Shown here piece after piece: positions 28,139-34,858 of a stretch of DNA of 36,975 nt; the stretch's first letter is position 1; every line of letters starts with the position of its first letter. A program made the translations under genes and the position numbers. Source of the DNA: an uncultured bacterium (GTDB lineage: Bacteria; Actinomycetota; Actinomycetes; S36-B12); NCBI GenBank assembly GCA_903934925.1, contig CAIZPS010000127.1, positions 1 to 36,975 of the forward strand. The letters are read 5' to 3'. Under the pieces are notes generated by a model. It was not told where the DNA came from. It saw only the letters and a program-made list of their open reading frames with translations, and did not search any database.

Positions 28139-28229
28139 CGCATGATGCCGGGGAGGAATGTCCTGTTCCCGGGCGAGCATCGGTCCTTCGCGGTTATGCT
28201 GCGTGGCACTCGCCAGAAGGACCACGGCG

Positions 28230-28328
28230 ATGACACACGGGCAGTCCAGCAGCAGCAGCAGCGAGGGGAGCGGAGCAGCGTGCACAAGCGCGTCGTGGCG
28301 GGACTCCTGGCGCTCTTCGCCGCCGTGA
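28230..28328 (+). other. Candidate leader ORF (MTHGQSSSSSSEGSGAACTSASWRDSWRSSPP) overlapping the likely livH start
   Basis: AGAAGGA-N8-ATG; (AGC)5 at 28248-28262 encodes Ser run; ends inside livH in another frame. Confidence 0.3.
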
Positions 28329-29554
28329 TCGCGCTCATGGTGCTCGCCCAGCCCGCCAGTGCCGATGGCGAGCAGTTGAGCGGACGCATCGAGAATCGGG
28401 TCGAAGGCGTCAAGACACCTCTGGCAGGGGTAACCATCAACGCCGTCGGCGGGGGCTTCGAGGGCTCCGCCACGACGGGCGAGGACGGCACGTGGGTCAT
28501 CCCGGTGCCGGCTCAGGGCGAGTACGCGGTCACTATCGACGTCACGACCCTGCCCGAGGGAGTCGGCCTCACCGACCCCGAGAAGGTCACCTTCGTCACG
28601 ACCGTGAAGCCGCCGAACATCAACCGGGTCGTGATCTTCCCCCTCGGCCAGAGCACCGCTACCACCACCTCGCTGTGGGAGCAGGCTGCTCAGCTCACCG
28701 TTTCCGGCCTCCAGTTCGGGTTGATGATCGCGCTTGGCGCACTCGGGCTCTCGATCATCTACGGCACCACCGGTCTCACCAACTTCGCGCACGGCGAGAT
28801 CCTGACCTTCGGCGCGCTGGCCACCTGGACCTTCAACGCCGGGTTCGGCCTGCCCTTCATCCTGGCGGCCTTCCTGGGCCTCATCCTGACCGCGCTGTTC
28901 GGGTGGCTGAACAACGCTGCCCTCTGGAGACCCCTGCGCAAACGGGGCACCGGCCTCATCGCCATGATGATCGTGTCGATCGGCCTGGCACTGCTCCTGC
29001 GCAACCTGTACCTGTTCTTCTACGGCGGCGACAAGGCCGCCTACGCGGAGTACGCCGGCCTAGCCGGCCTGTCCTTCGGCCCGGTCTCGATCACGCCGAC
29101 CGACATCGTCTCCATGGTCGTCGCCGTTGTGGCCCTCGCAGCCGTCGTCCTCATCATCGGCAAGACTCGGATGGGCAAGGCCACGCGTGCGGTGTCCGAC
29201 AACCCGTCGCTTGCCTCGAGTGCCGGCATCAACGTCGAGCGAGTGATCACCTTCGTGTGGGTGCTCGGAGCGGCACTGGCAGGCCTCGGCGGCATCCTGC
29301 TCGGCTTCACGCAGCAGGTGTCGTTCCAGATGGGCTTCCAGATCCTGCTGCTCATCTTCGCGGCCGTCACCCTGGGTGGTCTGGGCACCATCTCCGGCGC
29401 GATCGTCGGCTCCCTCGTCGTCGGGCTCTTCCTGCAGTTGACGACCCTGGTCATCCCCACAGAGCTGAAGAGCGTCGGTGCGCTCCTCGTCCTGATCGTC
29501 ATCCTCCTCGTCCGCCCCTACGGCCTGCTGGGCCGCCGAGAGCGCGTGGGATAG
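28280..29554 (+). CDS. livH: Branched-chain-type ABC transporter permease (LivH) with N-terminal secreted domain
   Basis: GTG at 28280 preferred over 28142; signal VHKRVVAGLLALFAAVIALMVLAQPASA; permease TM core LSIIYGTTGLTNFAHGEILTFGALATW. Confidence 0.88.
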   Translation: MHKRVVAGLLALFAAVIALMVLAQPASADGEQLSGRIENRVEGVKTPLAGVTINAVGGGFEGSATTGEDGTWVIPVPAQGEYAVTIDVTTLPEGVGLTDPEKVTFVTTVKPPNINRVVIFPLGQSTATTTSLWEQAAQLTVSGLQFGLMIALGALGLSIIYGTTGLTNFAHGEILTFGALATWTFNAGFGLPFILAAFLGLILTALFGWLNNAALWRPLRKRGTGLIAMMIVSIGLALLLRNLYLFFYGGDKAAYAEYAGLAGLSFGPVSITPTDIVSMVVAVVALAAVVLIIGKTRMGKATRAVSDNPSLASSAGINVERVITFVWVLGAALAGLGGILLGFTQQVSFQMGFQILLLIFAAVTLGGLGTISGAIVGSLVVGLFLQLTTLVIPTELKSVGALLVLIVILLVRPYGLLGRRERVG

Positions 29555-29563
29555 GGGGCGGTC

Positions 29564-30559
29564 ATGGATTGGGGATACATCATCTCGGTGATGATCGTCT
29601 CGGCATTCGGCGTCGAGGCGATCGTCTTCGGCCTGGCCGCCATCGGCATCAACATGCAGTTCGGCTACACCGGCCTGCTCAACTTCGGGCAGTCAGCCTT
29701 CATGGCCGTGGGCGGGTACTCCGTGGCCGTCACCGTCATCGAACTAGGAGCCAACTTCTGGTGGGGCGTGGTCATCGCCTTCGCCGTCACGATCGTTCTC
29801 GCGCTGCTCCTCGGCATTCCGACCCTGCGACTGCGCGCCGACTACCTCGCCATCGTCACGATCGCGGCGTCCGAGATCGTCCGCCTCATTCTCCGATCCG
29901 TCACCTTCAAGGAGATCTTCGGCGGCTCCGACGGCCAGTTCAGCTTCGGAGCCGACTTCTTCGCCCTGAGCCCGCTGCCCGAGGACCTCGCCTTCCGCAT
30001 CGGGCCGGTCGTGCTCAACGAGCGTCAGATCTTCGTCCTCATAGTGGGCTGGGCCCTGGTGTTCTTGTCCTGCCTCATCGTCTGGCTGCTGGTCCGATCC
30101 CCCTGGGGGCGCGTGCTCAAGGGCATCCGGGAGGACGAGGACGCTGTTCGCAGCCTTGGCAAGAACGTCTACCTGTACAAGATGCAGGCCCTGGTGATCG
30201 GCGGCCTCTTCGGCGCGATCGGCGGCATCATCTATGCCGTCGGCAATGAGGCGGTGAGCCCGGACTTCTTCGGCACCGACACCACCTTCTTCGCCTACGC
30301 CATCCTGATCCTGGGCGGAGCCGCCCGCGTGTTCGGCCCCGTCCTCGGCACCGTCATCTTCTGGGCGATCATCCAGGGAACCGACGTGTTCCTGCGCTCC
30401 GCCATCGACATCGGGGTGCCTGTGCTCTCGCTCATGACCGGCACTCAGGCGGCCGTCGTCCGCTTCATGCTCGTCGGCCTTGGCATCATGCTGCTGATGA
30501 TCTTCCGGCCACAGGGAATCCTCGGCGATCGAAGGGAGCTGGCTCTCGATGCCCGATAA
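29564..30559 (+). CDS. livM: Branched-chain-type ABC transporter permease (LivM)
   Basis: GINMQFGYTGLLNFGQSAFMAVGGYS; PTLRLRADYLAIVTIAASEIVRL. Confidence 0.93.
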   Translation: MDWGYIISVMIVSAFGVEAIVFGLAAIGINMQFGYTGLLNFGQSAFMAVGGYSVAVTVIELGANFWWGVVIAFAVTIVLALLLGIPTLRLRADYLAIVTIAASEIVRLILRSVTFKEIFGGSDGQFSFGADFFALSPLPEDLAFRIGPVVLNERQIFVLIVGWALVFLSCLIVWLLVRSPWGRVLKGIREDEDAVRSLGKNVYLYKMQALVIGGLFGAIGGIIYAVGNEAVSPDFFGTDTTFFAYAILILGGAARVFGPVLGTVIFWAIIQGTDVFLRSAIDIGVPVLSLMTGTQAAVVRFMLVGLGIMLLMIFRPQGILGDRRELALDAR

Positions 30560-31445
30560 CGCCCCCGAGACACGCAAGGAGGCCGCTCAGCGCGCACTGG
30601 CCGATGTGCCGCGCGTGCCCGGCGCACCCAAGCCCGACCCGATCCTTATCGCCGACGGCGTCGTTCGCTCCTTCGGCGGCCTCACCGCCGTCGACGTCGC
30701 GCACGTCGAGGTCCAGCGCGGTGCCATCACAGCACTCATCGGGCCTAACGGTGCAGGCAAGACCACCTTCTTCAATCTGCTGACCGGCTTCGACACCCCC
30801 AACACCGGCACCTGGCTGTTCAACGGACACGACCTGGCTGGGGTCGCGGCCTTTCGGGTCGCGCGCATGGGCATGATCCGTACTTTCCAGCTGACCAAGG
30901 CCCTGTCGAAGATGACGGTCATGGAGAACATGCGGCTCGGCGCAACCGGCCAGAAGGGCGAGCGCCTGCTGTCCTCGATCTTCGGCTTCCTGTGGTCGGC
31001 CCAGGAGCGCCAGGTCACGGCCAAGGCCGAGGAGCTGCTCAGCCGGTTCAACATGCTCCAAAAGAAGGATGACTTCGCCGGATCGCTGTCCGGAGGCCAG
31101 CGCAAGCTCCTCGAGATGGCCCGAGCCCTGATGACCGACCCCGAGATGGTCATGCTCGACGAGCCCATGGCCGGCGTGAATCCAGCGCTCACTCAGTCCC
31201 TGCTCCAGCACATCAAGGATCTGCGGGAGCAGGGCATGACCGTCCTGTTCGTCGAGCACGACATGGACATGGTTCGCGACATCAGCGACTGGGTCATCGT
31301 CATGGCCCAGGGCAAGGTCATCGCCGAGGGTCCGCCCGATGAAGTCATGCGGGACGAGGCGGTCATCGTGGCCTACCTCGGCGGTCACCACGACAAGGCG
31401 CTCACGTCCAGTGGCGTGTCCTTCACCGAGGAGGCGCACGGATGA
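30549..31445 (+). CDS. livG: Branched-chain-type ABC transporter ATP-binding protein (LivG)
   Basis: IGPNGAGKTTFFNLLTGF, LSGGQRKLLEMARAL, VMLDEPMAGVNP. Confidence 0.94.
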   Translation: MPDNAPETRKEAAQRALADVPRVPGAPKPDPILIADGVVRSFGGLTAVDVAHVEVQRGAITALIGPNGAGKTTFFNLLTGFDTPNTGTWLFNGHDLAGVAAFRVARMGMIRTFQLTKALSKMTVMENMRLGATGQKGERLLSSIFGFLWSAQERQVTAKAEELLSRFNMLQKKDDFAGSLSGGQRKLLEMARALMTDPEMVMLDEPMAGVNPALTQSLLQHIKDLREQGMTVLFVEHDMDMVRDISDWVIVMAQGKVIAEGPPDEVMRDEAVIVAYLGGHHDKALTSSGVSFTEEAHG

Positions 31446-32314
31446 GTGACCAGCTGCCTGGTGACGCCCCGCAGTACGTCTCGCCCCATCAGCGCGAGAC
31501 GGCTCTGGATCTCGATGCCGCACAGCGGGACGAGCCCACCGCCCTCAGCAACTCCGAGATCCGCGACCGCAACGCCCACATCGAGGGCGCGAAGGATGCG
31601 CTGATCGTCGCCGACGACCTCATCGCCGGTTACATCCCGGGCGTCAACATCCTCAACGGCGCCGATCTGTACGCGAAGTCAGGTGAGCTGGTGGGCATCA
31701 TCGGCCCCAACGGAGCCGGCAAGTCCACCCTGCTGAAGGCCCTCTTCGGGCTCGTACGCGTCGGTTCCGGGCGGATCACCCTCGCCGATCAGGACATCAC
31801 GAACGTGCGGGCCGACCGCCTCGTGACCATGGGCATCGGCTTCGTCCCGCAGACCAACAACGTCTTCCCCTCGCTCACGATCCAGGAGAACCTCGAGATG
31901 GGCTGCTACCAGGCGCCGTCGAGGTTCAAGGAGCGCTTCGAGTTCGTCACCGACCTCTTCCCCGCCCTTGGAGAGCGCAGGTCGCAGCGTGCCGGCCAGC
32001 TGTCGGGTGGGGAGCGCCAGATGGTGGCCATGGGCCGCGCCCTGATGATGGATCCCTCGGTGCTGCTGCTGGATGAGCCCTCTGCAGGCCTGTCCCCCAT
32101 CCTCACCGACGAGGTCTTCGTCCGCGTCAAGGAGATCAACGCCACGGGCGTGACGGTGATCATCGTCGAGCAGAACGCCATGCGCTGCCTGCAGATCGTC
32201 GATCGGGGGTACGTCCTTGATCAGGGACGCAACGCCTACACGGGCACCGGGCGCGATCTGGCCACGGATCCGCAGGTGGTGCACCTGTACCTGGGTACTC
32301 TCGCCCAGGCGTAA
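31442..32314 (+). CDS. livF: Branched-chain-type ABC transporter ATP-binding protein (LivF)
   Basis: IGPNGAGKSTLLKALFGLV, LSGGERQMVAMGRALMMDPSVLLLDEPSAGLSP; ATGA overlap with livG. Confidence 0.94.
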   Translation: MSDQLPGDAPQYVSPHQRETALDLDAAQRDEPTALSNSEIRDRNAHIEGAKDALIVADDLIAGYIPGVNILNGADLYAKSGELVGIIGPNGAGKSTLLKALFGLVRVGSGRITLADQDITNVRADRLVTMGIGFVPQTNNVFPSLTIQENLEMGCYQAPSRFKERFEFVTDLFPALGERRSQRAGQLSGGERQMVAMGRALMMDPSVLLLDEPSAGLSPILTDEVFVRVKEINATGVTVIIVEQNAMRCLQIVDRGYVLDQGRNAYTGTGRDLATDPQVVHLYLGTLAQA

Positions 32315-32416: not shown

Positions 32417-32454
32417 GCTGTGGGGGCCGCCCCCGAAGGGACGACCCCCACAGC
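32417..32454 (-). terminator. Intrinsic terminator of the substrate-binding protein gene
   Basis: GCTGTGGGGG/CCCCCACAGC 10-bp stem, followed on - strand by CTTTTCCC. Confidence 0.8.
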
Positions 32455-32466
32455 GTGGGACTGCTC

Positions 32467-33867
32467 TCAGCCGACGTTCGGGCCGATGCCCTGCTTGACC
32501 ATCTCCTGGATGATCTGAGCGGACTCGTCGAAGCCGATGAGGACGACCGCCTCCGGACCCGCAGCCTTGATCTTCGCCACGTCAGCGGCGAAGTCGGTGG
32601 CCTTGGGGTCGTAGACGACGTTGGCGACAACCTCGCCACCGCCCTCGGTGACCGCCTTGGTGACGTTGGCGTTCAGGCCGTCACCGTAGGAGTCCTGGAG
32701 CGACATGATGGCCACCTTGGTGTAGCCGTCCTGCAGCACGAGCGTGCCGACGAACGCGCCCTGGAGGACGTCCGACGGTGCCGTGCGCCAGTACAGGCCG
32801 CGGTCGGGAGCGGTGGTCAGCTCGGGCGAGGTGTTCGCCGGGCTGATCATCAAGACACCCGCATTGGTGACCTGGTCGAGAACCGACAGGGTCGAGCCGG
32901 AGGAGGCGGCGCCGACGAGGATGTCGATGCCCAGCGGCAGGAGACGCTTGACGGTCTGCTTGCCGGTCTCGGTCGAGGTGTCGCCCGAGTCGCCCTCCTC
33001 GAGGACGATCTTGTCGAAGCCCGGAATGCCACCGGCCGCCTCGATGTCCTTGATGGCGAGCTTCACGCCGGCGACCTCGGGTGGGCCGAGGAAGGCGAGG
33101 TTGCCCGTCACGGGAAGGAAGGTGCCGATCTTGAAGACGCCGTCGCCAGCGCCCTCCTGCGGCTTGCCGTCGATCGGATTGGCCTCGCCCTCGGGCACGA
33201 TCTCGCCCGCGAGGTACGTCACCTCAGGAAGGAGCGTGTTGTCCGGGCCGAACTGGTACACGCCGATCGAGGCGCTGGTCGGGTCACCGGCATCCCAGAA
33301 GTTCACGGCACCGGAGCGACCGTTGTAGTCGATCTCCTTGCCCTCCTCCAGGAGCGCGAGGCAGCCCGCGTAGTCGTTGCAGATCTCCGTGCCGTTGGTG
33401 ATCGACACCATCTGCTTGGCCATGTCGACACCGGCGTCGGACTTGGCCTTCGCCGCGGCAAGAGCCGCGAGGACGACCGCGTCGTAGGACTCGGGGGCGT
33501 AGGCGAAGTCGATCAGCTCGGGATCGACCGACAGCAGGGCATCCTTGAAGTCCTGGGTGTTCTCCGCACCCGGGATGGTGCCCTTGACGCCGTCCAGGGT
33601 GCCGGCCGGGAGCTTCTCGCCCAGCGCGTTGCCCGTGTTGCCATCGACGAGGTACAGCGGCACGCCAGCAGCTGCGGGAGCCTCCTCGGCGGGAGCCTCC
33701 TCAGCAGGAGCCTCCTCGGCGGGAGCCTCCTCAGCAGGGGCTTCGGCTGCGGGCTCGCTGGCCGCTGGCTCGGTCTCGGCGGTGTCGCTGCTCCCGCCGC
33801 ACGCGGCGAGGGCAAGCGAGGCCACACCGAGCACGGCAGCGGTCTTGAAGACCGTTGTGCGCTTCAT
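32467..33867 (-). CDS. ABC transporter substrate-binding lipoprotein (Peripla_BP_6/LivJ-like), apparently circularly permuted
   Basis: Lipobox LALAAC; EEAPA linker; then VPLYLVDGNTGNALGEKLPAGTLDGVKGTIPG...IGVYQFGPDNT, then VFKIGTFLPVTGNLAFLGPPEVAGVKLAIKDIEAAGG...YWRTAPSDVLQG...VLIGFDESAQIIQEMVKQGIGPNVG*. Confidence 0.9.
   Translation of the reverse strand: MKRTTVFKTAAVLGVASLALAACGGSSDTAETEPAASEPAAEAPAEEAPAEEAPAEEAPAEEAPAAAGVPLYLVDGNTGNALGEKLPAGTLDGVKGTIPGAENTQDFKDALLSVDPELIDFAYAPESYDAVVLAALAAAKAKSDAGVDMAKQMVSITNGTEICNDYAGCLALLEEGKEIDYNGRSGAVNFWDAGDPTSASIGVYQFGPDNTLLPEVTYLAGEIVPEGEANPIDGKPQEGAGDGVFKIGTFLPVTGNLAFLGPPEVAGVKLAIKDIEAAGGIPGFDKIVLEEGDSGDTSTETGKQTVKRLLPLGIDILVGAASSGSTLSVLDQVTNAGVLMISPANTSPELTTAPDRGLYWRTAPSDVLQGAFVGTLVLQDGYTKVAIMSLQDSYGDGLNANVTKAVTEGGGEVVANVVYDPKATDFAADVAKIKAAGPEAVVLIGFDESAQIIQEMVKQGIGPNVG
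33680..33739 (-). repeat. 4 x 15-bp coding repeat (EEAPA linker)
   Basis: GCCTCCTC[G/A]GC[G/A]GG[A/G] x4 on + strand, alternating as a 30-bp unit. Confidence 0.9.
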
Positions 33868-33891: not shown

Positions 33892-33911
33892 GCGACGGCG
33901 GACGCCGTCGC
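33892..33911 (-). other. Perfect 8-bp hairpin at predicted 5' end of substrate-binding protein mRNA
   Basis: GCGACGGC-GGAC-GCCGTCGC; -10-like TAGAGT at 33926-33921. Confidence 0.6.
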
Positions 33912-34051: not shown

Positions 34052-34633
34052 CTACTCCGTGCTGGCCAGCACGAGGGCCGCCGCCTCCGCCAGCGTGATG
34101 CGGCCATCCATGGCCGAGCGCCTGAGGAGGGCGAAGGCCTCGGGCTCGGTGAGGCCAGAGGTCTCCTGCAGCCTCCCCTTGGCGCGCTCGACCACCTCCC
34201 GGGCATCCTGTCGCTCCCTCAGCCCGGTCACCTGGGCGGCGAGCTCGCGCATCTGCTCCCATCGGGCGACGGCCACCTCGATGGCCGGCGGGAGGTCACT
34301 GCGCCCGAAGGGCTTGACGAGATACCCGAGGACCCCGGCATCCACTGCGCGTCGGACGGTCTCCTGCTCACTGAACGCCGTCACCATGACGACGGGAGCC
34401 AGCCCCTCGGAGATGATCTCCTCCGCTGCCGAAAGGCCGTCGCGGCGAGGCATCGCGACATCCAGGAAGACGACGTCGGGGCGCAGTTCCCGGGTTCGAT
34501 CAACGGCCGCCTGGCCGTCAGCCACCTGCCCCACGACGTCGTAGCCGAGTTCGGTGAGGAGCTCGACGAGGTCCATCCTGATGAGAGCCTCATCCTCGGC
34601 AACGAGGACCGTCGTGACCTTCGGGTCGGTCAT
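34052..34633 (-). CDS. pdtaR: ANTAR-domain response regulator (PdtaR-like)
   Basis: VLVAEDEALIRMDLVELLTELGYDVVG receiver; C-terminal RLQETSGLTEPEAFALLRRSAMDGRITLAEAAALVL ANTAR. Confidence 0.92.
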   Translation of the reverse strand: MTDPKVTTVLVAEDEALIRMDLVELLTELGYDVVGQVADGQAAVDRTRELRPDVVFLDVAMPRRDGLSAAEEIISEGLAPVVMVTAFSEQETVRRAVDAGVLGYLVKPFGRSDLPPAIEVAVARWEQMRELAAQVTGLRERQDAREVVERAKGRLQETSGLTEPEAFALLRRSAMDGRITLAEAAALVLASTE

Positions 34634-34645
34634 GAGGACAGCGTA
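34631..34645 (-). promoter_or_regulatory. Putative leaderless promoter: TACGCT-N6-ATG of the ANTAR regulator
   Basis: - strand TACGCT GTCCTC ATG. Confidence 0.5.
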
Positions 34646-34680
34646 GGGCGACGACCCACGCCGACTACCATCGGTGACAC

Positions 34681-34754
34681 GCCCCGGTATCCCAACCGGC
34701 AGAGGAAGCGGTCTCAAACACCGTCCAGTGTGGGTTCGAATCCCACCCGGGGCA
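34681..34754 (+). tRNA. tRNA with anticodon CAA (Leu), short variable loop, CCA not encoded
   Basis: GCCCCGG/CCGGGGC acceptor; GCGGT-CTCAAAC-ACCGT anticodon arm; 5-nt variable loop CCAGT; GTGGG-TTCGAAT-CCCAC T arm; A73 followed by CCC. Confidence 0.88.
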
Positions 34755-34858
34755 CCCCTGAAGGATCGATAACGGTTCAGCACGCGTTGCCTCGTGAGCC
34801 CGAGATCAACCGCTTCGCGCTGCTAGCCTCAGCAGCACCATTCGCGGAAGGATCCCCC

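Follow-up and report, generated by a model that had tools for sequence, protein, structure and literature searches.

Can the substrate-binding protein of an amino-acid importer carry its two segments in exchanged order and still serve at its usual locus, and how would such an exchange come about? The question is raised by a gene at positions 32467-33867 on the minus strand of the stretch of DNA analysed here, which is 36,975 nucleotides long and is called the window below. The gene was characterized by its single open frame, segment order, conservation in the genus and dN/dS as encoding a permuted LivJ-type substrate-binding lipoprotein of 466 residues. All parts of the protein are encoded on the minus strand. 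The sequence begins with a signal peptide (residues 1-23; 33799-33867) ending in the lipobox LAAC, the cysteine of which, Cys23, is invariant among permuted proteins. A 45-residue tether of EEAPA repeats, also recognized in the sequence, follows (residues 24-68; 33664-33798). The segment that is usually C-terminal comes next (residues 69-226; 33190-33663). A clade-conserved linker of 17 residues (227-243; 33139-33189) then connects the former C- and N-termini, and the usual N-terminal segment is now last (residues 244-466; 32470-33138). The terminator proposed 3' of the gene in an earlier, sequence-only reading corresponds to a real hairpin (32417-32454, minus strand) with a 17-bp stem, a folding energy of -40.3 kcal/mol and a z-score of -4.9, followed by UUUU.

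The order of the segments is evident from profile comparisons. Peripla_BP_6 matches residues 246-463 only, at profile positions 3-217 of 343 (118.5 bits, cut-off 31.7). The protein does not follow the whole profile collinearly: the remaining part precedes the matched one, and this is the permutation itself. When the segments were aligned separately their matches came in swapped order, residues 68-227 matching the end of the ANF_receptor profile (positions 271-350 of 353) with 21.8 bits, below the family cut-off of 25.4. The de-permuted sequence gives one continuous Peripla_BP_6 match over positions 3-311, with 130 bits compared to 118.5 for the native order, and its ANF_receptor match spans positions 6-350. 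Orthologues of normal order, including their C segment, align to each of the two window segments separately and in reversed order. KQGIGPNVG, which precedes the stop codon at the new C-terminus, and GVPLYLVDGN, at the new N-terminal side, flank a single loop, which runs unbroken in canonical orthologues: KQGIGPDKVPLFLVDGN. The sequence-only reading had placed the C-terminal segment before the N-terminal one, and profile order, de-permutation and the structure comparisons given below all bear this out. Its boundaries, 69-226 and 244-466, hold within a few residues.

The permuted order is present in most of the other genus members, with 85-94% identity per segment. It was found in ten further genomes, two of which are cut by contig ends; in G004, strictly, what is visible is limited to an N segment at the end of the gene. 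An eleventh genome, G006, has a diverged permuted copy and a canonical copy, G007 is canonical, and a search of G003 for a binding-protein match found none. The permuted clade is under purifying selection, with pairwise dN/dS values of 0.12-0.17 for residues 69-466, and the linker is constrained as well (0.04-0.28). Chance and assembly error are excluded because the order is conserved in genus genomes of independent studies. The genome to which the window contig belongs is fragmented (302 contigs). Even so, the gene is almost certainly neither a chimera of assembly or binning nor a pseudogene in decay: the same order recurs in the ten further genomes and in records of different studies, the frame is intact and selection is purifying. 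The sequence-only reading had already taken the gene to be intact.

The window protein is confidently modelled with a type I binding-protein fold. Its AlphaFold2 model, calculated from an alignment of permuted proteins together with separate canonical N and C pieces (pLDDT 90.8, pTM 0.89), is as confident as that of a canonical orthologue of the same genus (pLDDT 91.9, pTM 0.90). Foldseek depends on order and requires the same course of the chain in both structures. It aligned the canonical model to the leucine-binding protein 4n0q over 376 columns (TMq 0.76, TMt 0.84), whereas the permuted model aligned over 221 columns only (TMq 0.48), a difference that a circular permutation would be expected to produce.

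Two cut points occur among permuted proteins. The type-A cut separates the KQGIGP helix from the PLYLVDGN strand, and the type-B cut lies about 20-25 residues later. In the numbering of the canonical model, type A falls between helix 209-218 and strand 228-230, and type B between strand 228-230 and strand 252-255. Known LivJ topology and predicted secondary structure suggest that both cuts lie in lobe 2, in loops leading from a helix to a strand; for the window protein this position of the new termini had been proposed earlier, and the models, the homologues and the LivJ topology support it. With every cut, the N-terminus and its lipid anchor would then leave lobe 1 for lobe 2. The 17-residue linker would have to cross from lobe 2 to lobe 1, adding a fourth inter-lobe connection. 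The linker is 17-30 residues long in 28 permuted proteins and never shorter. The median tether length is 22.5 residues in permuted proteins versus 33.5 in canonical ones, with overlapping ranges.

The binding pocket is retained. Residues S79, T102, Y150 and Y202 of LivK (1usg) align to S323, T346, Y394 and F446 of the window protein, and E226 of LivK, which belongs to the swapped segment, is presumably equivalent to D75, as judged by eye (MGPEG versus YLVDG). The pocket columns are almost invariant when 29 permuted proteins and 50 canonical ones are compared. The only exceptions among the permuted proteins are one change of S to T and one of T to A, both in the permuted copy of G006. The window protein resembles LivJ, LivK and other Peripla_BP_6 (HAAT-type) proteins in sequence family, modelled fold, pocket residues, lipoprotein anchor and livHMGF neighbours, but differs from LivJ and LivK in its segment order, its termini in lobe 2 and the added linker. 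Family, pocket and neighbours point to the capture of amino acids for LivHMGF, and the protein would dock on LivHM as LivJ does. The gene very probably encodes a working LivJ-type protein, held by a lipid anchor, that binds amino acids for the livHMGF importer next to it and has been circularly permuted.

The importer genes lie on the plus strand: livH (permease, 28142-29554), livM (permease, 29564-30559), livG (ATPase, 30549-31445) and livF (ATPase, 31442-32314). LivH was recognized by BPD_transp_2 (4e-41) and synteny, its coordinates being those of the longest open reading frame with an uncertain true start; the other three are open reading frames named by sequence and operon order, and are syntenic. 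The locus order, polA, a thioesterase gene, livHMGF with the convergent binding-protein gene, an ANTAR regulator gene, nusB and efp, is identical in permuted and canonical genomes, and the window gene sits where other genomes have the canonical orthologue. No partner gene peculiar to the permuted genomes was noticed. An extracellular N-terminal part of LivH, similar to CarboxypepD_reg (PF13620, residues 79-133, 24.4 bits, below the cut-off of 32.3), precedes the permease domain. A special link between the permuted protein and this unusual LivH, raised in the sequence-only reading, was rejected, since genomes of the order with canonical binding proteins have a similar N-terminal extension.

In most of the genomes examined, whether permuted or canonical, the gene next upstream of the binding-protein gene is that of the ANTAR response regulator (Response_reg and ANTAR; 34052-34783, minus strand), a position that hints at a regulatory link. 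The longest reading frame of the regulator shares its start region with a tRNA gene on the opposite strand (34681-34754, plus strand; Rfam, 53 bits), so the true start of the regulator is probably downstream. The leader of the binding-protein gene (z -2.5) contains a GC-rich 8-bp hairpin (33892-33911, minus strand) immediately 5' of the start codon, which is possibly a target of the ANTAR regulator or a product of chance.

Within its order, the permuted form is restricted to the genus of the window. Searches at the level of class, phylum and family disproved the first impression that the permutation is limited to this genus altogether: permuted orthologues have a patchy distribution over the phylum, and the order, far from being unique to the window protein, is found in many actinobacteria and has seemingly arisen several times. 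Sampling of the class, the phylum and f32 was partial. Type A occurs elsewhere in the families f30 (four genomes), f48 (G517) and f40 (G347 and G255). In family f32, 16 of the 246 genomes sampled are permuted, and they are mixed with canonical ones even inside one genus. Type B was found outside the class, in G609, G841, G789, G806, G693 and G751. Nearly all permuted genes are convergent to livHMGF, as the canonical ones are. The exceptions are the genes of G347 (locus L116) and G255 (locus L117). These two have tethers of 12-13 residues, long branches and no recognizable liv genes within the stretch read, and their proteins may have another role.

In a tree of 79 proteins the type-A groups are separate. 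The f32 type-A proteins are sister to canonical f32 proteins with support of 100/100, the proteins of G517 and f40 are placed elsewhere, and those of the genus of the window (g1) and f30 may form one group. The approximately unbiased (AU) test rejected a single clade of all type-A proteins (delta lnL 179, p-AU 4e-8) and a clade of g1, f30 and f32 (p 0.002). It did not reject g1 and f30 as one clade, nor a single type-B clade. The AU p-values serve as guides because the groups were named after the tree had been seen. The tree and the rejection of a single type-A origin indicate at least three type-A events and at least one type-B event. On these sequence comparisons, the same gene seems to have been permuted several times, apparently independently, at one locus.

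Several origins could be mimicked if one ancient permutation had been followed by gene replacement, or by gene conversion from canonical donors, scattering the canonical and permuted forms. This is the main rival to recurrence, and replacement of the liv cassette does occur at this locus. By their flanking housekeeping genes, G006 and G007 belong to the genus (99/98), with G007 sister to the lineage of the window (100/99). Their livHMGF genes group with other genera (99/99 and 100/100), and so do their canonical binding proteins. The nucleotide profiles show a clear mosaic in G007 and a weaker one in G006. It looks as if a cassette of livHMGF and the binding-protein gene was replaced from other genera at the same locus (L053 in G007, L054 in G006). 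In G007 the signal peptide and tether are still of the resident type, with 87% identity over residues 1-71, and the body of the binding protein is replaced; the breakpoint seems to be within the tether. The permuted gene of G006 adjoins the incoming cassette, has lost its own liv cassette and is diverging fast (branch 1.5-1.7, dN/dS 0.64). The canonical copy of G006 probably arrived with the foreign cassette and left the permuted copy as an orphan. This suggests, by inference, that a permuted protein is maintained only alongside its own LivHMGF. The tandem of permuted and canonical genes in G006 had also been considered as a frozen duplication intermediate, an idea dropped because livHMGF and the canonical protein of G006 group outside the genus.

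A single ancient permutation nevertheless appears improbable. The clades that survive the AU test, g1 with f30 and type B, would accommodate it, but those it requires for type A as a whole, and for g1, f30 and f32, are the ones rejected. Furthermore, the type-A f32 proteins are sister to canonical proteins of their own family, the type-B cut differs from the type-A cut, and G006 alone among the loci read has the permuted and canonical forms together.

A standard route is permutation by duplication, in which tandem copies fuse and redundant ends are then lost (reviewed in PMC3320104). The window gene would have arisen in this way, by tandem duplication, fusion and trimming, and the swap would at the same time have moved the lipid anchor between the lobes and turned the linker into an additional connection. 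Tandem canonical copies are present at the locus in relatives (G103:C83, locus L096, and G099:C11) and could represent the starting arrangement. A fused N-C-N-C intermediate was looked for in the loci examined and was not found.

Whether the permutations were selected is a separate matter. Anchoring by lobe 2 might usefully alter lobe closure or docking on LivHM, and the same gene would then have been permuted in place at least four times in Actinomycetota as a convergent adaptation to lipid tethering; this proposal is a possibility, somewhat less likely than not. The chances are about even that the permutation has no effect, being a neutral by-product of tandem duplication in which the loops tolerate termini and both forms work alike. 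The two forms serve the same locus, share the pocket and overlap in tether length, no partner gene sets the permuted genomes apart, and relatives have tandem canonical copies. Against neutrality, all cuts found fall in two neighbouring loops of lobe 2 though other loops might accept termini; so few events do not permit formal testing, however, and proteins of this kind were themselves the source of the search profile. On present evidence, adaptation is no likelier than neutrality.

Natural permutation of a type I binding protein is already known. Tp0684 (TpMglB-2) of Treponema pallidum, the structure of which has been solved, is naturally permuted, binds glucose and changes conformation; both treponemes and Gram-positive bacteria have homologues. 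Its chain crosses between the lobes a fourth time, and the authors named tethering as one possible cause of the permutation (PMC4990184). The window protein resembles it in being a naturally permuted, tethered type I binding protein with a fourth inter-lobe connection, and its model has the circularly permuted type I fold of Type Ic, or TpMglB-2-like, proteins. By analogy it may work as this kind does; common descent is not claimed. TpMglB-2, compared here by its description only, is of the glucose-binding MglB family with a permuted strand order described in the N lobe, whereas the window protein belongs to Peripla_BP_6, is cut in lobe 2 according to the model and has permuted counterparts, apparently of repeated origin, at the orthologous locus. 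No report of permuted LivJ-type or branched-chain binding proteins was found in the open-access literature.

The surprising part is the recurrence at one locus. Permuted and canonical versions at the same locus, even within a genus, allow direct comparison and amount to replicated natural experiments on chain topology with function kept. The earlier suggestion made for Tp0684, that membrane tethering drives the permutation of binding proteins, becomes testable. The case is also a warning that order-dependent searches, of sequence or of structure, capture only part of permuted proteins. For the design of biosensors, it points to two loops in LivJ-type proteins that have received new termini in nature.
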